Part shown: piece after piece, positions 3,170-59,155 of the stretch
Layout of the letters: every line of letters begins with the position of its first letter
Numbering within the stretch: position 1 is the first letter of the stretch
Assembly (NCBI GenBank): GCA_002070115.1
Contig: MWCO01000027.1
Coordinates: 1 to 64,000 of the forward strand
DNA: 64,000 bases
Direction: 5' to 3'
Source of the DNA: Deltaproteobacteria bacterium ADurb.Bin207
Lineage (GTDB): Bacteria; Myxococcota_A; Polyangia; Polyangiales; Polyangiaceae
The notes under the pieces: model-generated
The model's database searches: none
Told to the model about the DNA's origin: nothing
What the model saw: only the letters and a program-made list of their open reading frames with translations
Program-made: the position numbers and the translations under genes

Positions 3170-4315
3170 TCACGCGCGATTGGACGCGCCATAAGCGGGT
3201 TGCTCCATCAGATGGGAGAAGTCACGGTATTGCGTGACCTCGGGCGTGGCATTCGGCACCTCTTGGGCCTGCTCGCGCCATAAGGTTGCGCGCAAAGAAG
3301 CAAGAGCCACCTCGAGTTGGGTGTCGTCCGGCTCCAATGTGGTGATGCCCTGCACCGCGAAGCCCGGATACAACACCAAGCGCAGCGGACCGCGAAGACA
3401 ATAGCGCGCCGTCCAACGCTGGATCTCATACGTGATGGCGGCAATCACGGGCAGAAACGGCAATTTCATCAAGAAAAACAATATGTTCTCAACGACGCCG
3501 CCAAGGTTCAGACGGGGTAGCAATGGCCCAATCCCCGAAAACACAAGGATCGATACGAAGACCACCATCACCAAAAATGTCGTCCCACATCGGGGATGAA
3601 AACGCGTCTTGCTCCGCGCATTGTCCACCGTCAACGCCTCGGCCGCCTCGTAGGTGGCAATCGCCTTATGCTCCGCCCCGTGATACATGAAAACCCGTCG
3701 CACCTCGGGGATTCGACGCATCAGCAGCATGTATCCGAGGACGATGCAGAGCTTGAAGATACCGGTCAACACCTGGAAAGCTGGCGAGCGGATGTCCACT
3801 TCGATATGCAGCAAACGACTCGCTCCCGCAGCCGCGGCTTGAGGAAGGGCCACGAACAAAAGAAGGGCAAAGAGCATCGCCACAAACGTCATCGAAGAAC
3901 CGGATTTGGTCTGCCCACCGCTGGGCTGTGCATCGAGATCAGAGGTGGCAATGCCCACGATCGCACCGGTGATGGTGCGAAACGCCGACAGACAGGATGC
4001 GATCACACCCGGACCTTTCTTTTTCTCTTCCGCTTCCAGGTCCGCTTCATAATGCTCCGCCGAAAATCGAAGCGCCCCTGTTCCAAGCCGAAGCGCTTCG
4101 ACCAACGTTGCCACGCCACGAACCAGCGGCCACGCCAACACCCCCTTGCGTGTATCCGTCATGGCACGCTCTTTGACCGTCAACGTGCCGTCACGACGTC
4201 GCAGCACAACCGCATAGGACCGAGGCGAACGCATCATGACCCCTTCGATGACGGCTTGCCCGCCGATATAGGGACGCGCCTCGGTGGCGCAGGTGGATAA
4301 CCGTTCCGAACTCAT
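3170..4315 (-). CDS. DUF1385 (YqhQ-like) membrane protein
   Basis: Integral membrane protein of unknown biochemical role that typically sits between rpmE and prfA. The start is placed at MSSERLSTC, shortly before the family signature RPYIGGQAVIEGVMMRSP. Several membrane segments are visible (MTFVAMLFALLLFVALPQAA, LVMVVFVSILVFSGIGPLL and the segment before PVIAAITYEIQRW), and there is the conserved YHGAEHKAIATYEA histidine-rich motif. 381 aa, somewhat longer than Bacillus YqhQ. The gene follows rpmE by 32 bases, consistent with one operon. Confidence 0.92.
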   Translation of the reverse strand: MSSERLSTCATEARPYIGGQAVIEGVMMRSPRSYAVVLRRRDGTLTVKERAMTDTRKGVLAWPLVRGVATLVEALRLGTGALRFSAEHYEADLEAEEKKKGPGVIASCLSAFRTITGAIVGIATSDLDAQPSGGQTKSGSSMTFVAMLFALLLFVALPQAAAAGASRLLHIEVDIRSPAFQVLTGIFKLCIVLGYMLLMRRIPEVRRVFMYHGAEHKAIATYEAAEALTVDNARSKTRFHPRCGTTFLVMVVFVSILVFSGIGPLLPRLNLGGVVENILFFLMKLPFLPVIAAITYEIQRWTARYCLRGPLRLVLYPGFAVQGITTLEPDDTQLEVALASLRATLWREQAQEVPNATPEVTQYRDFSHLMEQPAYGASNRA

Positions 4316-4347
4316 CTTGAAGTTGTTAGGCAAAAAGTGGGAGAAGG

Positions 4348-4551
4348 CTAGGCCTTGGTGGCGTACTTTCGACGGAAGCGTTCGACACGACCCTGGGTGT
4401 CCACCAGCTTCATTTTGCCCGTGTAGTAAGGATGGCACATCGCGCAAACGTCGACCGAGTAATCTCCCTTGCTCGAACGAGTCTCGAAGCTGGCCCCACA
4501 AGCGCACGTGATCTTGGCGGCAACATACGTTGGGTGAATATTCTCTTTCAT
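4348..4551 (-). CDS. rpmE: Ribosomal protein bL31, zinc-binding form
   Basis: Large-subunit ribosomal protein of 67 aa starting [10 protein letters not shown], preceded by GAGGT. The CACG near residue 16 and CAMC near residue 37 supply the four cysteines of the zinc-binding type of bL31. The C-terminal [20 protein letters not shown] is the conserved core. First gene of the minus-strand operon that runs to the HIT gene. Confidence 0.97.
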
Positions 4552-4718
4552 CACGACCTCATCCAATCACCGGCATTGCCACGCAATTCCGGACGAATCT
4601 TCGGCAAAACCTAGGCCATCCATGATGGCACGGGAAGCAAGGGGGCGCACTTTACGCGTCAAGCGATACGCGCGCAAGGCCGAGTTCCATTCCTTGCCGT
4701 TTTCATGCGTTTTTGTTC

Positions 4719-50754: not shown

Positions 50755-51303
50755 ATATCGCTCAGGTTGACCGGATCGGGATGCACAAAAAGCAACCGCG
50801 CAAAGGAAAGGGGGGGAGGTATCCTTCGCGCGGTCTAAGCGTGGGAGGATGAGGGGGGTACCCTCTCACGCCTTCCCAGGAAACCAGCATAGGACATGCC
50901 AAATCAATTACTTGAAAACTCCAGGGCTTGTTGGTCGATGGGTGCGAAGGGGCTTGCGACCATGCAATTTCACCCTTTCTCAACGGCAACAGCGACTGTA
51001 CGGAAATGTAGTTCACGGATCAAACGCTCCCTCAGTACCAGCAAAGTGAAGAAGTCCGTTTGGACGCGACGAAAAATGTGCGTTCCCTGTCGATGAACAG
51101 GTGCGCTTGGCCGTCAAGGAATGCACACTTCACTCTGTCATGCTCTGTCCCAAGCCATTGCCCTTACCACGATGAAGATTCGCCACCACCCTTCGGATTG
51201 GTACAGATCCTGCGCTTGGGTACGGAAAGTCTCCAAGGTCGGCTGCCCCGCCGACAAGCACCCGATGCAATCCCCCACGCATGGGGTGCAGAAAGGGAAA
51301 TCG
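50755..51303. other. 549-base region without a supported gene
   Basis: Lies between the kinase-FGE and protease genes. Reading frames that open here (for example from 50896 and 51060) have no RBS or recognisable family. A pair of similar stretches, EVRLDATKNV and DEQVRLAVKE in different frames, hints at a decayed gene but is not convincing. Confidence 0.3.
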
Positions 51304-52662
51304 ATGCGCTCAGCCCAGTTATTATCCCTGCTATCACTCACCTTATTGCCCGTCGCCTGCGGTGCGGAAGACCCCCTCCCCCCTCCCGAATCCACAGGTC
51401 AACACACCGAACCCATCATTGGCGGCACGCTCGACTCCGACAGTTCCCATGATGGCGTCGTCATGCTCTACACCCAAGACGGTGCGCTTTGCACCGGTTC
51501 GGTCATTTCTCAACCCGGCCAAAAAGGCGTCGTCCTAACCGCAAGACACTGCGTTTCCAACGTCGTTTCCGAGTATGTGACCTGCAAAAACGATGTGTCT
51601 GGAGACCTATACCCCGGTTCCATCTACGTGCTGAAAGGAACGAGTCCGAACGAAAACAGCATCATCGGCCGGGGAGAAAAGCTATTTCATACCGGCGGCA
51701 CGTCGTTGTGCGACAACGACATCGCCGTGATGGTCCTTCAAGATTCCCTCAGCGGAGTGCAGCCCCTGCGAGTTCGAAAGGACAAACAAACTTTCATCGG
51801 AGAGACGTTTACTGCCATTGGTTATGGGTTGACCAACCCCAATAGCCAGTATTCCGCGGGCAAACGATACCTGCGCAGCAATGTCCAGGTCACCGACTTC
51901 GGACCCAAATATTACGGCCTGTACGAAAAAGAGTTCCTTGGGACCGTGTCGATTTGCCAAGGGGACTCGGGTGGCCCAGCCGTGTCGAGTGATTACGCCG
52001 TCATGGGCGTAACCTCCCGTGGTGGGGACTGCAATGGCAATACCAACATCTGGACCCGCCCGGAAAAGTTTATCGATGTCATCGACCAAGCGGTGACCTA
52101 CGCCGGATCGACTTATCAAGACGACGATGGCAATTTGCACAATGGTTCGGGTGGCGGCAGCGGGGGAAGTGGCGGTAGCGGCGGAAGTGGCGGTAGCGGC
52201 GGAAGTGGCGGCAGCGGGGGAACTGGGGGCAACGGCGGAACTGGGGGCAGCAGCGGAGTTGGCGGAAGTGGCGGTGATCCGGTCGGTGGGAACGGAGGTT
52301 CGGAACCCGTGGGCGGCTCCGCCGGGGCGGCAGGCGGACCCACGGAACCCATCGAAAACTGCGGAGATTTCGGCCCATGCCCAGAAGGCACGACCTGTGT
52401 CATGGACCCCACCTCGCATCAGTATGCTTGTGGAACCACGTGCAACGAACAGCTTCCTTGCGCCGTCGGCGTCTGCGACCCATCCCTCGGCGTATGCGTC
52501 CGTCCTCCTTCCAAACGTTCGAATGAAGACTCCGCTGACTCCGATGGCTCTTGTTCCATCGGTTCCTCCCCTTCGCAACACCCACGCTGGTGGACCTTCG
52601 CACTTACGGCCATCGGCGCAGTGATGTGGCGTCGTCGCACGCGCGTTCGCCCAGGAACGTAG
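51304..52662 (+). CDS. Trypsin-like serine protease with MYXO-CTERM-like tail
   Basis: 452 aa from MRSAQLLSLLSLTLLPVAC with AAAGGG upstream. Chymotrypsin-fold: PIIGGTLDSDSSHDG, catalytic His in VVLTARHCVS, Asp in CDNDIAVMVL, Ser in CQGDSGGPAVS. A long GGSGGSGG linker follows, then CPEGTTCVMDPTSHQYACG and a C-terminal Cys (DGSCSIGS), a hydrophobic helix WWTFALTAIGAVMW and RRRTRVRP, the layout of the MYXO-CTERM sorting tail. The N-terminal Cys may be a weak lipobox (LPVAC). Surface protease, probably for prey or peptide digestion. Confidence 0.9.
   Translation: MRSAQLLSLLSLTLLPVACGAEDPLPPPESTGQHTEPIIGGTLDSDSSHDGVVMLYTQDGALCTGSVISQPGQKGVVLTARHCVSNVVSEYVTCKNDVSGDLYPGSIYVLKGTSPNENSIIGRGEKLFHTGGTSLCDNDIAVMVLQDSLSGVQPLRVRKDKQTFIGETFTAIGYGLTNPNSQYSAGKRYLRSNVQVTDFGPKYYGLYEKEFLGTVSICQGDSGGPAVSSDYAVMGVTSRGGDCNGNTNIWTRPEKFIDVIDQAVTYAGSTYQDDDGNLHNGSGGGSGGSGGSGGSGGSGGSGGSGGTGGNGGTGGSSGVGGSGGDPVGGNGGSEPVGGSAGAAGGPTEPIENCGDFGPCPEGTTCVMDPTSHQYACGTTCNEQLPCAVGVCDPSLGVCVRPPSKRSNEDSADSDGSCSIGSSPSQHPRWWTFALTAIGAVMWRRRTRVRPGT
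52147..52277 (+). repeat. Gly/Ser coding tandem repeat
   Basis: GGCGGAAGTGGCGGTAGC-type units (18 bp, and 9-bp halves) repeated, degenerating to GGAACTGGGGGCAACGGC at the right. Encodes the GGSGGSGG linker of the protease. Such arrays expand and contract easily. Confidence 0.75.
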
Positions 52663-52930: not shown

Positions 52931-54094
52931 TCATTCCGGCTGAGAGCACTCCACCGCCGCGGCAGAATTCCCGTCGGAATCTGTCAGGGAGGCTCGTTCG
53001 CACGAGGGTTGCCCGTCTTCGAACTCGGTGCGTCCTTGCTCACCAGCACAAACGGCGTCCATGAGCGCCGCGGCGGCCGCACGCAGGTCCGCAAGCTCCC
53101 GTTCCCCATAAATCTGCCCTTTTTCTACCCCATCGGAACCGTAAAGCTTGAACGTGGGTACCGCGTGTATCCCGAGTTGCCGTCCGAGATGGGCGTTGCG
53201 AGGATCCGAAAGATTCACCGTGAGTATCTCCACCCCACGACGAACACAATCTTGTTTGAGCTGGTCGACCCGTGGTTTCATTCGTTCACACACGGGGCAG
53301 TTTTCGTCATAAAACTCCACCAAACGAGGTTTGGGCGTCGGAGAACCCAAAGCAGGACCTACCGTAATGTCATCGTCGGCGATGACCACCAGAGACGAGG
53401 AAGCCGAAGGTTCCCTTGCCGCGGCTATCACCGCGGGAATTGCCAACGCAAGCCCCACAGCCACCATGACCACCCCTGTGGCTTTCTCGATTTTGGGCAG
53501 GTGACGATTGAGTTTTCGCAGCAGGGGCACCAATCGGTCCGCCAGCACACTGACGACGAGCAGCGGAAGGCCCACGCCCATGCTGTACACGAAAAGGTAG
53601 CCCCCTCCCGCCAACGCGCTGTCTGTCGTCGCAGCCGTGTACGTGAGCACGGAGCCAAGAATAGGACCTACACAGGGAGTCCATCCCAGGGCAAAAACGA
53701 CTCCGAAAAGAAACGCGTCGAAAGCTCTGGAACCGGTTTTGAATTGTTTGACCTGAAAGGTTCTTTCAAGAAATCCAATTCGCAGCAGGCCAAGATACTT
53801 CAGACCGAAAAGAACGATGATGACGCCGCCAGCGATGAGCAAAACGTCTCGATGGTGACGCAACACCGAGCCGATGGACGACGCCCCCAATCCCAGGAAC
53901 GTGAATACGAGGCTGAATCCAGCCACGAATAGCGTCGCGGATCCCAAAAGCCGAAAGCGAGCGCTCGGTGCTTTCGCGGAATCCAAGCTCGCCCCTAGCA
54001 GCAGGGACAGGTAGACAGGGAGCATCGGTAGGATGCACGGCGTGACGAGGGTGAGCAGCCCAGCGCCAAAGATCGATAAGATACTGTGTTCCAT
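52931..54094 (-). CDS. CcdA/DsbD-type thiol transporter fused to thioredoxin domain
   Basis: 387 aa. N-terminal six-span CcdA core: LTLVTPCILPMLPVYLSLLL with the first redox Cys, and FALGWTPCVGPILGSVLTYT with the second. The C-terminal third is a thioredoxin fold: VEFYDENCPVCERMKPRVDQ with CPVC, then AVPTFKLYG with the cis-Pro. The domain order is that of DsbD without its N-terminal domain. It moves reducing power from the cytosol across the inner membrane to periplasmic cysteines, which fits a Cys-rich secretome. No clear SD before ATG. Confidence 0.9.
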   Translation of the reverse strand: MEHSILSIFGAGLLTLVTPCILPMLPVYLSLLLGASLDSAKAPSARFRLLGSATLFVAGFSLVFTFLGLGASSIGSVLRHHRDVLLIAGGVIIVLFGLKYLGLLRIGFLERTFQVKQFKTGSRAFDAFLFGVVFALGWTPCVGPILGSVLTYTAATTDSALAGGGYLFVYSMGVGLPLLVVSVLADRLVPLLRKLNRHLPKIEKATGVVMVAVGLALAIPAVIAAAREPSASSSLVVIADDDITVGPALGSPTPKPRLVEFYDENCPVCERMKPRVDQLKQDCVRRGVEILTVNLSDPRNAHLGRQLGIHAVPTFKLYGSDGVEKGQIYGERELADLRAAAAALMDAVCAGEQGRTEFEDGQPSCERASLTDSDGNSAAAVECSQPE

Positions 54095-54164: not shown

Positions 54165-54866
54165 TCACGGTTTGGAAAAAAGGGCCTGTCGTAAGCTTTC
54201 TACCCCCCAGCGCCCTTCCAAACTGCCATGAACCACGTGGCGCGCGAGATGAGTTCGATGATCATCCGGACGGTTTGCCAAAATTCTGCGCAAATCCGGA
54301 TAAGCTCCGGCAACGAAAGAAGCAAACTCGACCCCATCACACTCGCCAACCTTACGGCCCACGATGATGGCGTTGATTCGCAGCGGCGATGATTCCAGAT
54401 AGCTGATCGCTTCCATCGGCGTTTTCGCCCCATGGGTCTGCACCCCAATGGCTTGAAGACCCATCGACAACCAGCGAAGTTCTCGCTCCGAAGACGAAGC
54501 AATCAAGCATCGGGGAAACATGCCCAGCGCCAGTTCCGTTACGATGAGGTTGCCAATATTATCCTCGTTCTTCGCTTCGAGCGGAGCGAATTGGATGACC
54601 ACGCGATTCTCGCGGCTCCGCTGTGGAAGCGTTCGCAATACCGTGCCCCGTACATGCATCGTTTGATAGCCGGGAATCATCAACCGAAGAGAAGCTTTCG
54701 ACCCCGCCGACAACGGAGTCATCCCGGTCAACGCCACGCCTCCCCGCGATAAATCATGTACCGCATACAATCCGGTCGCTCGCTTCGTCGTGCATTGCGC
54801 AACAGCATGACGAGGCTGAATACGATAGGCGCGTCGACGATCCACCGATGGGCTTGACTGGCTCAT
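54165..54866 (-). CDS. PilZ domain protein with degenerate receiver domain
   Basis: 233 aa. MSQSSPSVDRRRAYRIQPR with AGGAGGT upstream; RRAYR and DLSRGGVAL are the RxxxR and [D/N]xSxxG motifs that bind cyclic di-GMP. Residues about 110-233 follow a response-regulator fold (RCLIASSSERELRWLSMGLQ, AIIVGRKVGECDGVEFASF) but the phospho-acceptor Asp position is Gly (IIVGR instead of LLDxx), so it should not be phosphorylated. Probably a c-di-GMP effector acting by contact with a partner. Downstream of the STN-membrane gene, same strand. Confidence 0.82.
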   Translation of the reverse strand: MSQSSPSVDRRRAYRIQPRHAVAQCTTKRATGLYAVHDLSRGGVALTGMTPLSAGSKASLRLMIPGYQTMHVRGTVLRTLPQRSRENRVVIQFAPLEAKNEDNIGNLIVTELALGMFPRCLIASSSERELRWLSMGLQAIGVQTHGAKTPMEAISYLESSPLRINAIIVGRKVGECDGVEFASFVAGAYPDLRRILANRPDDHRTHLARHVVHGSLEGRWGVESLRQALFSKP

Positions 54867-54991
54867 GGGAACCTCCTGGACAGCGAGGTCTGAAACGCCA
54901 CACGACCCACCGTCATGGCGCGAAGTGCGCGTCCCATACCCTTGTCTTTGAGCGATGCCCCCATGACCGCAAGCCTTTCGACGACTCTTCT

Positions 54992-56251
54992 TCAGACTCG
55001 TGAACGCTTCGCTAGCAAGCTGGCACCACGGGTGGCAACGATGGTTCCAAACCCAAGCAATACAACTACGAATAGAACGATGGTTCCCAACAAGGGCAGC
55101 GCTTTGGCAAGCAAAAACAGCAAACACCCCAGCGCGAGATGGGTGTACGGATTGCGTGTTCGATGACCGAGCAAGGCGCTTCCCAGCACAGCCAGAACAC
55201 TCGTCACACCCGCGTACGCCCCCATGATGACCAGCAACAAAGCAACAATCGCGATGGGAATGCCTACCACGCTGATGGTGAGGGCAAGTAGCAATGCGGC
55301 AAAACAGATCGTACCGACGATACCAAGCGCCAGCGAACGCATGGGACGAGCAGCCACTTCCGCTTGTAGCTCGCGCATTTGCGAAGAAGCAAGCGCCAGA
55401 AACACGGATCCAAGCAAGAACAAAACAGCGATTTCCGCAATGGCTCTTCCCGCGGCTGTGAGCACTCGCCGATACCAAGGCCATGCATTGCCCTCATTCG
55501 CCTCGTCCTTCTCGCCCATGGAATTGGAGGCGGAACGTCCGCCAATCTGCGCGGTATCGCCCCTTCGCAACACGCCACCTACGACACCCACATCACCGTC
55601 GACACGCGAGCCATCATCCACATGCAAAGACCCACCCACGGCCGTTGCATCTCCCATCACGTGTGCGCCACGATGAATTCTCGCCGACCCTCCAATGACC
55701 GTAACATCGCCCGTCGCGGTGCCAAACACATCTGCAGAGCCTCCGAACACCACCACGTCGCGGACGACTTCATCTTTTTCGATCCGTGTGCTGCCACCAG
55801 TCAATACGCGATCTTGCGGCTTGCTGGCCGTGGGTAGAGCGTCGGGGGGCGGCGCGGAAGAAGGGGGGGAAGCCGACGACGATGAAGCTATAAGTGTTGG
55901 TTTTATAACATCTTTTTCTATTGCTATGAGGCTCCCTTCTCGCCTTGCCACATAGTCGTCGTCCGCCAAAATCATCGACAGAACGTTGACGGCAGGCTGC
56001 TTGTGAACGACCAGATCGATGACATCGGTTTTCGGAGAATGAATGACGATACTCCACCCCATCGCATCGGCTAACCGCCGAATGGCTTCCGAACGAGTAA
56101 GCCCTTGGGCCTCTAGAGAAACGGCAGAATCCGCATCGGGCCAAGGGCCTTCCAAACGCACGGCAGCGTTGGCTCGTGTGGCGAGCAGCGTAACCGCTAC
56201 CACCCCTACGAGAAGCCATGCGGGCAGACGAAAGGATTCGAGGGATTTCAT
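54992..56251 (-). CDS. STN-like domain + beta-helix + membrane protein in sigma-factor operon
   Basis: 419 aa. Signal LVGVVAVTLLATRANA. N-terminal STN/secretin-like domain (LTRSEAIRRLADAMGWSIVI, LVVHKQPAVNVLSMILADDD, GSLIAIEKDVIKP). Ser/Pro linker; then a bactofilin-like parallel repeat (VFGTATGDVTVIGGSARIHR, HVMGDATAVGGSLHVDDGSR, DGDVGVVGGVLR). Four membrane helices at the C-terminus (AIAEIAVLFLLGSVFLALAS, IVGTICFAALLLALTI, IAIVALLLVIMGAYAGVTSV, LLFLLAKALPLLGTIVLF). Overlaps the anti-sigma stop by ATGA. Unusual combination; role unknown. Confidence 0.75.
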   Translation of the reverse strand: MKSLESFRLPAWLLVGVVAVTLLATRANAAVRLEGPWPDADSAVSLEAQGLTRSEAIRRLADAMGWSIVIHSPKTDVIDLVVHKQPAVNVLSMILADDDYVARREGSLIAIEKDVIKPTLIASSSSASPPSSAPPPDALPTASKPQDRVLTGGSTRIEKDEVVRDVVVFGGSADVFGTATGDVTVIGGSARIHRGAHVMGDATAVGGSLHVDDGSRVDGDVGVVGGVLRRGDTAQIGGRSASNSMGEKDEANEGNAWPWYRRVLTAAGRAIAEIAVLFLLGSVFLALASSQMRELQAEVAARPMRSLALGIVGTICFAALLLALTISVVGIPIAIVALLLVIMGAYAGVTSVLAVLGSALLGHRTRNPYTHLALGCLLFLLAKALPLLGTIVLFVVVLLGFGTIVATRGASLLAKRSRV

Positions 56252-56760
56252 CGCGTTTCTCCGTAGGAGGCGGTTTGTCGGGGAAGGGAACGGACGATCG
56301 TGGCGGCACCGGCAAGCAGAACGACGATGGCGATCAAAAAGACCAATGCGATGAAATGGGCCATGTCCTCGGAACGGGATAACACAACCAAAGCGCGCGT
56401 CAGGTTCGGAACGACGGCCGAGAGCGTATGAGCCAGGTTTTGTGCTTTGGCGACAAATCCCCCAAGGGAAGGCAATGCGCCGAGCAACGCCAGAACCAAC
56501 ACGGTCAGCAACGACGGAAGGGAAAGAGGCCAGGGGATTTGCCGATACGATTGCTGCTGCAACAAGGTCTGTGCTTGTGCGGATAACAGAAAAGCATCTC
56601 CCAGACGGATCGCGCACGGCTCGCATTCGTTCGCATGCTCACGAACGCAAAGGGGAACGAGCGCATCCTGTCCATCGGCCAGCGCATCGAGCGCAACATC
56701 CGAAAGATGACCATCCTTTTGCCAAAGGATGTCCGAGGGAATCATCCTAGGTTCGCTCAT
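56248..56760 (-). CDS. Zinc-binding (ZAS) anti-sigma factor
   Basis: 170 aa starting MSEPRMIPSDILW. N-terminal cytosolic motif REHANECEPCAIRLGD, the HxxxCxxC of ZAS anti-sigma factors. Membrane helices SLPSLLTVLVLALLGALPSL and FIALVFLIAIVVLLAGAATI. It begins by overlap (ATGA) with the sigma-factor stop and ends overlapping the next gene, so the three are translated in fixed ratio. Predicted to hold the ECF sigma factor inactive at the membrane until an envelope signal arrives. Confidence 0.85.
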   Translation of the reverse strand: MSEPRMIPSDILWQKDGHLSDVALDALADGQDALVPLCVREHANECEPCAIRLGDAFLLSAQAQTLLQQQSYRQIPWPLSLPSLLTVLVLALLGALPSLGGFVAKAQNLAHTLSAVVPNLTRALVVLSRSEDMAHFIALVFLIAIVVLLAGAATIVRSLPRQTASYGETR

Positions 56761-57356
56761 GGTTTCCTCGATTCGGCATGTATTTCGGTAAAAATGGCTC
56801 TTCGTCCACGAGATATCCACGTGGCCACCGTGCCAAGAGGAACTCCGAGGCGCTCGGCAATATCCTGATAGCCAAGGCCTTCCACGTGAAACAGCAGCAT
56901 GGCTTTTCGTTGTCCTTCGGTCAGTTCGTTCATGGCCGCGCGCAACTGTCGTTCGCGACGCAATTGATCCATCTGTTCATCGAGCGCTGGGCGGGGGTCG
57001 GCGATCCGGTCGTAGATGATCGAGGACGAATCGCTTTCATCGGGGGATTCGTTCTGCACACGCCGCAAGGTATTTTGTCGGGCACGATGGTGGTCTAGGG
57101 CTACGTGTCGCGCGATTCCCAGAAGCCATGGACGAAGGGCTTTGTCGGGGCATAGTCGGGCGTATCCTTCAAGGGCGCGGCGTAAGACTTCTTGAACACA
57201 ATCCTCCACATCCGCGTGATCGCGTCGTTCACGAAGCATCGAAGCGATGACCGCGCGTACGATGGGAATATGCTCAGCCACCTCCTCGCCGAAGGAACGA
57301 GGTGCCGTGACAGCAGGCACGGGACGGCAAGGGGGGGACATGAGGGCCGGCATCAT
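56757..57356 (-). CDS. ECF-type RNA polymerase sigma factor
   Basis: 199 aa. Sigma2 region: VIASMLRERRDHADVEDCVQ, EVLRRALEGY, KALRPWLLGIARHVALDHHR. Sigma4: ELTEGQRKAMLLFHVEGLGY, QDIAERLGVPLGTVATWISR, the HTH. An acidic linker (NESPDESDSSSIIYDR) joins them. First gene of the sigma/anti-sigma/STN operon; 62 bases after the phosphatase gene. The ATG next to it (MMPALM) leaves the exact start open by one codon. Confidence 0.93.
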   Translation of the reverse strand: MMPALMSPPCRPVPAVTAPRSFGEEVAEHIPIVRAVIASMLRERRDHADVEDCVQEVLRRALEGYARLCPDKALRPWLLGIARHVALDHHRARQNTLRRVQNESPDESDSSSIIYDRIADPRPALDEQMDQLRRERQLRAAMNELTEGQRKAMLLFHVEGLGYQDIAERLGVPLGTVATWISRGRRAIFTEIHAESRKP

Positions 57357-57418
57357 TGTGCGCCGGATCCTTCGTTTTGGCAGACCAGATTATTTCATCG
57401 GGATAGCCTGGTCCCCAT

Positions 57419-59155
57419 TCAAATCTCGTACATACGCCCACCGTGTCGCGGGAAGTAGGGACGCCTCGCCACCAAAAACGTGCTGTCATCGGTGGCAAGT
57501 TGCGAACCTCGATAGGCGGTGAGCCGCTGGAGGACTCGTTCGCGGTATTCCTCGACGGTGGCGTGGGGTTCACGTTGAACGATATCGGCCAGGTGGGCGC
57601 TAAGGCGCTCTTCACCGAGAGCGACTTGGTTTTCGTCCACCATTTCCGTCAGGCCATCGGAATAAAGGACCAACAATTCATTGCCGATGAGCATGGATCG
57701 TTCCATTTCCATGCGTGTTTCCATCATTCCCAACGCAACATTTCGTTCGGATTGAAGCTGTCGAACGCGTCCATCGGGACTGACGGCGAAAGCGGGTGGA
57801 TGACCGGCGTTGACGACTTCGAGTTCGCCGCTCATCGTATCGATGGCAACGAGCATCATCGTCACGAAGGAGTGTTCGGGCAGATAGCTACACAGGTAGG
57901 TGTTGCAGCTTTGGATGAGTTGGGAAAGGTTTCCGCCCGCGTCGATGGTGGCATGCACCATCGTATGCAAACTGGAAGCGACCAACGCGGCTTGCAACCC
58001 TTTGCCGCAAACGTCGGCGATCGCGAGCAGAATACGCCCGTCGGGCATCGGAACGATATCGACATAATCACCACCGACCCAACGGCATGGTTCGTATCCG
58101 ATGGCGACATCCAAGCCTTCGATATGCAGAGTTCGCGGCACCAGCCCATCTTGGATTTGCCTGGCCATCTGCAATTCACGTTCGACGAACGCGGATTGTC
58201 GGACGTGTTTTCGCATGTCCCAAACGAGTTCCGCTTGTTGATACGCTTCAGCCACGAGTGCAACGAGGGTGAGCCACTCGGCGGTACCGTAAGAGGGGGG
58301 AAACTCGACATATAGGGCGTCGAGTTTATGGTCCTCCATGTCGAGAGGGCATGCGACAACCGCGAGTTGGCGGATGGCATTGGGCATGGAAAGGCGGCGT
58401 ATTCCGTGTCCGGAGTACATTCCATTGCTTCCCAGAACGGGTTCTCGGGTATCCCACAAGGTTTTGAGCACACCGATGGAAACCTGTCGTCCTGGGGAGG
58501 GGATAGAAGGATTGCGCAGGAAAGGTCCGCTTACGATTTTCGTGGGTTTTCCATCGCGCATGCGGATGGTGACGACCGAATCGGCGGGGAAGTCCGAACC
58601 CACGATAAATTCGCAGAGGGTACGAAGTCGTTTCGCGGGGTCTTCGACGCTCATGAGTTGTCGACCGAGCGCCATGACGGTGGTCAAATGGCTCGCGTTG
58701 ATCTGCGGGGAATCGGTAATTTTAGGCAATACGGTGATGAGGGTGGCATCCTCATCGGCCATGAGGTGAGCCGGAGCGTCTGGCAACGGATGGAAGGAGT
58801 CGGCGCGCTCTCGGACTTCTCTTGCGCCTGGGATATGGAGACGAAGGGAGAAGTCACCGATGCCGATGGTATCTCCGGGGTTGAGCATTCGTTCTTCGAC
58901 CAGGGAGCCGTTGACATACGTGCCGTTGGTGCTTCGCAGATCATGAACCCACCAGCGACCGAACGGATCGAAAACGAGTTCAGCATGCGAGCGGGATACG
59001 GTGGTGTGGTCAAGAACGATTTGGGCTTGTGGATTGCGGCCAAGAATGAGGTGAGAACCGGATAAGGTCTGTCGCTGGACACCGGGGATGCCGACGCGAG
59101 AGATTTCGAGAAATCCTTTGACGTCGGGGGTAGGCAGGCTATCGCTTTGAGACAT
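57419..59155 (-). CDS. FHA-GAF-PP2C (SpoIIE-type) phosphatase
   Basis: 578 aa. FHA domain about residues 15-110 (GSHLILGRNPQAQIVLDH, TTVSRSHAELVFD, DLRSTNGTYVNGSL) binds phospho-threonine. GAF-like region about 150-330 (GRQLMSVEDPAKRLRTLCEF). PP2C/SpoIIE phosphatase about 345-575 (ELQMARQIQDGLVPRTL, GGDYVDIVPMPDGRILLAIA, DVCGKGLQAALVASSLHTMV, VLYSDGLTEMVDENQ) with the metal Asp residues. RsbU-like domain order: probably dephosphorylates an anti-sigma antagonist or kinase substrate. Directly upstream of the ECF sigma gene. Confidence 0.93.
   Translation of the reverse strand: MSQSDSLPTPDVKGFLEISRVGIPGVQRQTLSGSHLILGRNPQAQIVLDHTTVSRSHAELVFDPFGRWWVHDLRSTNGTYVNGSLVEERMLNPGDTIGIGDFSLRLHIPGAREVRERADSFHPLPDAPAHLMADEDATLITVLPKITDSPQINASHLTTVMALGRQLMSVEDPAKRLRTLCEFIVGSDFPADSVVTIRMRDGKPTKIVSGPFLRNPSIPSPGRQVSIGVLKTLWDTREPVLGSNGMYSGHGIRRLSMPNAIRQLAVVACPLDMEDHKLDALYVEFPPSYGTAEWLTLVALVAEAYQQAELVWDMRKHVRQSAFVERELQMARQIQDGLVPRTLHIEGLDVAIGYEPCRWVGGDYVDIVPMPDGRILLAIADVCGKGLQAALVASSLHTMVHATIDAGGNLSQLIQSCNTYLCSYLPEHSFVTMMLVAIDTMSGELEVVNAGHPPAFAVSPDGRVRQLQSERNVALGMMETRMEMERSMLIGNELLVLYSDGLTEMVDENQVALGEERLSAHLADIVQREPHATVEEYRERVLQRLTAYRGSQLATDDSTFLVARRPYFPRHGGRMYEI

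Follow-up and report, generated by a model that had tools for sequence, protein, structure and literature searches.

The window analysed, a contiguous stretch of 64,000 nucleotides, carries between positions 54992 and 57356 of its minus strand a cassette of three genes. The first (57356-56757, minus strand) encodes an ECF sigma factor of 199 amino acids, with matches to Sigma70_r2 (5.9e-12) and Sigma70_r4_2 (2.8e-18) of Pfam and to TIGR02937 (6.5e-24). The second (56760-56248, minus strand) encodes a ZAS-type anti-sigma factor of 170 amino acids, and the third (56251-54992, minus strand) a protein of 419 amino acids, designated T, which has a signal peptide, an STN-like domain, a beta-solenoid and C-terminal membrane helices. 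The initial annotation of this DNA had described three genes coupled by ATGA overlaps and headed by an ECF sigma factor; the coordinates and both overlaps, at the sigma/anti-sigma and anti-sigma/T junctions, were verified, and the sigma2 and sigma4 domains were both recognised.

The anti-sigma factor contains the zinc-binding-type motif HANECEPC (residues 42-49; 56614..56637, minus strand), which is of the HxxxCxxC form found in all 25 homologues compared, followed by two predicted membrane helices at residues 85-103 and 137-155 with an intervening loop of only ~30-35 residues. Membrane helices were predicted for every anti-sigma factor examined. This is the layout of class I (ZAS) factors, in which the motif lies in an N-terminal cytoplasmic domain, the membrane helices follow and the gene adjoins that of the sigma factor. 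In Pfam, the window protein matched neither zf-HC2 nor the FecR periplasmic domain, and the structure model of the whole chain was of low confidence; homology to the N-termini of the fused relatives described below is a further basis for the assignment. The cassette has the sequence features of an ECF sigma factor and a ZAS partner, with the exception of a zf-HC2 match for the window protein, and the earlier naming of the second product as a ZAS anti-sigma factor is kept.

Window T alone had no match in Pfam or NCBIfam. Its STN-like domain occupies about residues 40-115 (55907..56134, minus strand). Pfam STN was matched by 11 of 19 T relatives (best 2.8e-9) and the PilQ model by 10 of them (best 2e-10), and the profile of the T family found PilQ STN-region structures at 3.9e-9 over profile positions 30-117. 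The AlphaFold model of T showed the STN order of strands and helices at residues 43-113 with a pLDDT of about 80-91. Foldseek returned PilQ N0, secretin N0 domains, a FecR-type anti-sigma factor and FoxA with probabilities of 0.98-1.00, all at E > 0.001; the PilQ match to the STN domain had a probability of 1.00 although its E was 5e-3. A parallel beta-solenoid with GG-turn repeats follows at residues 148-242 (55526..55810, minus strand), was modelled with a pLDDT of about 85-95, and is predicted to be periplasmic from the signal peptide and the membrane helices. The C-terminal membrane bundle of about four helices (residues 258-417; 55001..55480, minus strand) was recognised by hydropathy and appeared as helices in the model, in which this region was poorly resolved at a low pLDDT of 53-76. 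Solenoid and bundle together are the most widely conserved portion of T. Many T proteins (e.g., L047, L048 and L061) have a conserved tail near GPYRTAA that is missing from window T.

Bactofilins (PF04519) have a GG-turn parallel beta-solenoid in common with T, whereas T possesses a signal peptide and membrane helices and a bactofilin is a cytoplasmic polymer. Pfam Bactofilin was weakly matched by three of the 19 T relatives (best 4.8e-4), and T was not placed in that family, the best PF04519 score being 22.5 bits against a cut-off of 27.9 (relative L108). The combination of an STN domain, a bactofilin-like repeat and four helices proposed in the initial annotation is supported by the STN matches of the relatives, the model, Foldseek and hydropathy. 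The STN part, which had been made to depend on a profile hit, received one through the T family; for the repeat, the profile search yielded the weak Bactofilin matches in relatives, all below the Pfam cut-off. Literature searches for the architecture of T found nothing relevant, which does not prove that it is absent from the literature.

A T homologue was found in 42 of the 97 genomes searched, including that of the window. Among the fetched loci, the order sigma, anti-sigma, T occurs in at least 21 genera of the window's family, which is Polyangiaceae going by the named records; those with the triad include Polyangiaceae MAGs and Minicystis rosea. The conservation of the gene pair next to the sigma factor gene, on which the first description of the module had been staked, was thereby established. 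The start was placed for a 4-nt overlap in 18 of 25 measurable anti-sigma/T junctions and in 18 of 23 measurable sigma/anti-sigma junctions. Because most relatives have this order together with both 4-nt overlaps while the flanks vary, the arrangement is not due to chance. Five neighbours in the window were checked at the relatives' loci and none was conserved, except for one FHA-PP2C homologue at L069, and the cassette thus looks like a self-contained unit. The three proteins show correlated pairwise distances (r 0.72-0.74; 0 of 999 permutations), as expected if they are inherited together, although shared ancestry alone would also produce this. A search for conserved columns in a broad alignment gave no usable stretch and was redone with closer sequences; the phylum-wide survey was a protein search.

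Around the cassette, the following genes were named by eye: an FHA-SpoIIE/PP2C-type phosphatase upstream (57419-59155), the one with a homologue at L069; a PilZ-like protein downstream (54165-54868), not a conserved neighbour; a CcdA/DsbD-like membrane protein, apparently fused to a thioredoxin domain (52931-54094); and a secreted trypsin-like protease with a long GGS-repeat linker (51121-52662), whose C-terminal helix and arginines resemble a MYXO-CTERM sorting tail. At L069 of genome G017, sigma and anti-sigma factor lie in a single open frame of 359 amino acids (3585-4661), either because the two genes have fused naturally or because the assembly is wrong by one base.

Anti-sigma factor and T form a single polypeptide in seven genera belonging to two families of the same order, f3 (L071, L073, L074, L081) and f5 (L080, L097, L098, L099). 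These loci have no separate anti-sigma gene and carry instead one frame of 563-657 amino acids, which begins in a 4-nt overlap with the sigma stop codon and reads, from the N-terminus, as an anti-sigma-like portion, membrane helices, STN domain, solenoid and bundle. The fusion at L073 retains HLDECAEC and its N-terminus matched the anti-sigma profile at 4.7e-15; a profile of five fused N-termini matched the anti-sigma factor at 4e-8 with a probability of 95%. The HxxxCxxC motif is absent from most f3/f5 fusions, so zinc is not essential in them. The former signal peptide of T would serve as a third helix in the fusions, an arrangement that fits cytoplasmic N- and C-termini of the anti-sigma factor and a periplasmic STN domain. 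A second, separate fusion was found in the distant family f25 (L108), where zf-HC2 (3.5e-7) is joined to a bactofilin-like solenoid and a membrane bundle without an STN domain. These natural fusions argue for T being more than a neighbour of the anti-sigma factor, namely its partner, and they are the strongest evidence that the two may work as one complex.

Outside the window's order, a sigma factor, an anti-sigma factor with HxxxCxxC and a solenoid-membrane protein are encoded with 4-nt overlaps at L102, L103 and L105-L107. The zinc motif is absent at L104; at L101 the sigma gene is cut by the end of the locus and the junctions overlap by 1 nt. The N-terminus of T in these loci is coiled-coil-like, as judged from sequence, or missing. 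With a joined query, an anti-sigma gene adjoining that of T was detected in more genomes of families f30, f32, f35 and f39. The sensing head of T appears to be exchangeable: it is an STN domain in the window's order, families elsewhere in the phylum have a predicted coiled coil or lack an extra domain, and solenoid and bundle remain constant.

The sequence upstream of position 57356, to which the initial annotation had pointed as a source of the promoter motif, contains a predicted sigma-dependent promoter (57371..57396, minus strand) with a -35 element GAAAT (57396-57392), a 17-bp spacer and a -10 element CGAA (57374-57371); the sigma ATG follows after about 18 nt. Of 31 loci, 27 had the pattern GAAA(T/G)-N16-17-CG(A/T) upstream of the sigma gene; the spacer is 17 bp in most of them, and the distance to the start is usually 15-35 nt. 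Its strict form was observed in 24 loci, as against a shuffle mean of 0.09 (maximum 2). In f3, the -10 element is CGTA at the sigma promoters and at those of T paralogues alike. The conserved promoter of the sigma gene, GAAAT-N17-CGA, is new here and points to putative autoregulation.

The predicted regulon was mapped by sequence-pattern scans with the backward pattern as a control. In nine mostly high-GC genomes the pattern occurred 17 times (backward, 1), in six f3/f5 genomes 9 times (backward, 0), and in the window's own genome 14 times (backward, 3), which corresponds to a chance background of about 20%, with several matches being intragenic. A looser pattern gave 32 matches against 3 backward in the own genome, but most of those examined were intragenic and it was left out of the target lists. 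The variant GAAATTT-N15-CGAC, scanned in Sorangium-like genomes, also gave many intragenic matches, and only those just upstream of a start in G010 and G022 were used. The intragenic matches are probably due to chance.

Besides the cassette itself, the motif was found before T paralogues and membrane-protein genes. It precedes sigma-less T paralogues in the own genome (L003:8359), in G015, G013, G059 and G054, and in several f3 genomes; several of these paralogues have no STN domain. At L077, L078 and L079 the sigma-less paralogue consists of the membrane bundle only, each with the motif upstream. A membrane protein of 90 amino acids with weak DUF6677/TM2 similarity has the motif upstream in the own genome (G000:C17:79722-79991), G020, G022, G059 and G013, five genomes that represent four genera, as G020 and G059 share the genus label g21. 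The G013 copy was located by protein similarity before its upstream region was inspected. Of the two copies in the own genome, the motif is present at the C17 copy only and absent at the other (G000:C3:23870-24112). Further candidate targets are a lipoprotein family (G038, L144), a DUF5684 protein and a 69-aa membrane peptide in Minicystis; a lipoprotein of the same family (L148) and a trypsin-like lipoprotein in G003; and, in G010, proteins with DUF4870 and Toastrack. The Psp-like content comes mainly from one genome. In G010, GAAATTT-N15-CGAC gave 13 matches (controls, 0), several of them just upstream of genes for secreted or membrane proteins, and the regulon of this genome may be larger than that of its relatives. 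Loci L180, L185, L200-L203 and L206 belong to this motif set of G010.

We propose, with a probability of about 0.68, that the cassette is an autoregulated ECF module for envelope or inner-membrane stress in which T would act as sensor or co-regulator of the anti-sigma factor. What the sequence itself displays is the gene order, the overlaps, the domain make-up, the anti-sigma/T fusion and the common promoter motif. At rest, the two-helix anti-sigma factor would hold the sigma factor through its cytoplasmic zinc-type domain, and T would sit next to the anti-sigma factor in the inner membrane, its STN domain and beta-solenoid exposed to the periplasm. The periplasmic part of T, or its membrane bundle, would sense changes in the envelope; these would alter the T/anti-sigma complex and free the sigma factor through a conformational change or proteolysis. 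Free sigma factor would then transcribe its own operon from GAAAT-N17-CGA, giving positive feedback together with more anti-sigma factor and T, as well as the genes for extra T-like membrane proteins and for small membrane proteins or lipoproteins. T had initially been suggested to be either the sensor or the structural target of a new ECF system; the natural fusions favour a sensor or anti-sigma partner, and the predicted sigma promoter at the operon of T and before sigma-less T paralogues favours a target as well.

T could instead be an effector only, stabilising the membrane and standing third in the operon by co-regulation, with sensing left to the anti-sigma factor or another protein. The sigma-less paralogues in the predicted regulon indicate that T-like proteins are at least outputs, and the Toastrack and DUF4870 co-targets suggest membrane protection. 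This explanation is nevertheless unlikely, given two separate anti-sigma/T fusions, the strict adjacency of the two genes throughout the phylum and an anti-sigma factor without a sizeable sensory domain.

Still less probable is a relay resembling that of FecA/FecR, in which an outer-membrane protein, either a secretin or a TonB-dependent receptor, would signal to the STN domain of T through STN-STN contact, and T would relay the signal to the anti-sigma factor. Secretins and cell-surface signalling proteins have STN domains that do interact mutually (PMC11637429), and that of T matches PilQ N0, a FecR-type anti-sigma domain and FoxA, but no receptor or secretin gene adjoins the cassette in the window, no tested flanking gene is conserved at the relatives apart from the exception noted above, and replacement of the STN domain by a predicted coiled coil or by nothing in other families implies that it is not essential to the module. 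A role for the anti-sigma factor as a ChrR/RsrA-like sensor of redox state or zinc in the cytoplasm, with T irrelevant to signalling, agrees with the invariant HxxxCxxC of the 25 homologues but is very improbable in view of the membrane helices predicted throughout and of the fused forms, most of which have lost the motif and kept the module.

The FecA/FecR system, composed of a TonB-dependent transducer, the anti-sigma factor FecR and the sigma factor FecI, shares with the cassette an ECF sigma factor, a membrane anti-sigma factor and a periplasmic STN domain, whereas the STN domain of the cassette resides on an inner-membrane solenoid protein and is sometimes fused to the anti-sigma factor. 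The analogy drawn in the initial annotation holds for these shared elements and fails for the remainder: T lacks a TonB barrel and a plug, the window has no receptor gene beside the cassette, and there is no FecR-type periplasmic domain. The cassette was not classed as a FecA/FecR system. Contact of an STN domain with such a domain is not available, because the anti-sigma loop has only about 30-35 residues.

In Bacillus subtilis, SigM, YhdL and YhdK are an ECF sigma factor, a membrane anti-sigma factor and a small membrane third protein that are encoded in one operon and act jointly. The cassette resembles this system in its three-part operon; YhdK is not known to have a solenoid or an STN domain.

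The nearest published idea is the proposal that sigma-linked Toastrack operons are PSP analogues (PMC11237479). PSP-like Toastrack/LiaF/YvlB operons likewise combine a beta-repeat and a multi-helix membrane domain adjoining a transcription regulator, and Toastrack and DUF4870 proteins are among the predicted targets in one relative. The solenoid of T, in contrast, lies N-terminal to the bundle, after a signal peptide and an STN domain, and is predicted to be periplasmic, while Toastrack was proposed to be intracellular (PMC11237479). A DUF4097/Toastrack match was found in 0 of 19 members, and T was not assigned to that family.

More speculatively, and at slightly under even odds, solenoid and membrane-bundle proteins with exchangeable periplasmic heads (STN, coiled coil or none) may be an undescribed class of sensors or co-anti-sigma factors across Myxococcota, sometimes fused to the anti-sigma factor; they would run a membrane-stress regulon of Psp-like character, with T paralogues that the sigma factor controls feeding back on the switch. 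ECF sigma factors are numerous in myxobacteria, and few of them have a known signal or promoter. One widespread myxobacterial ECF group now gains a predicted promoter, a first list of targets and a candidate sensor. An anti-sigma domain fused to an STN-solenoid membrane protein would be a new wiring from periplasmic sensor to sigma factor, and the variable head suggests one chassis that may read different envelope signals.
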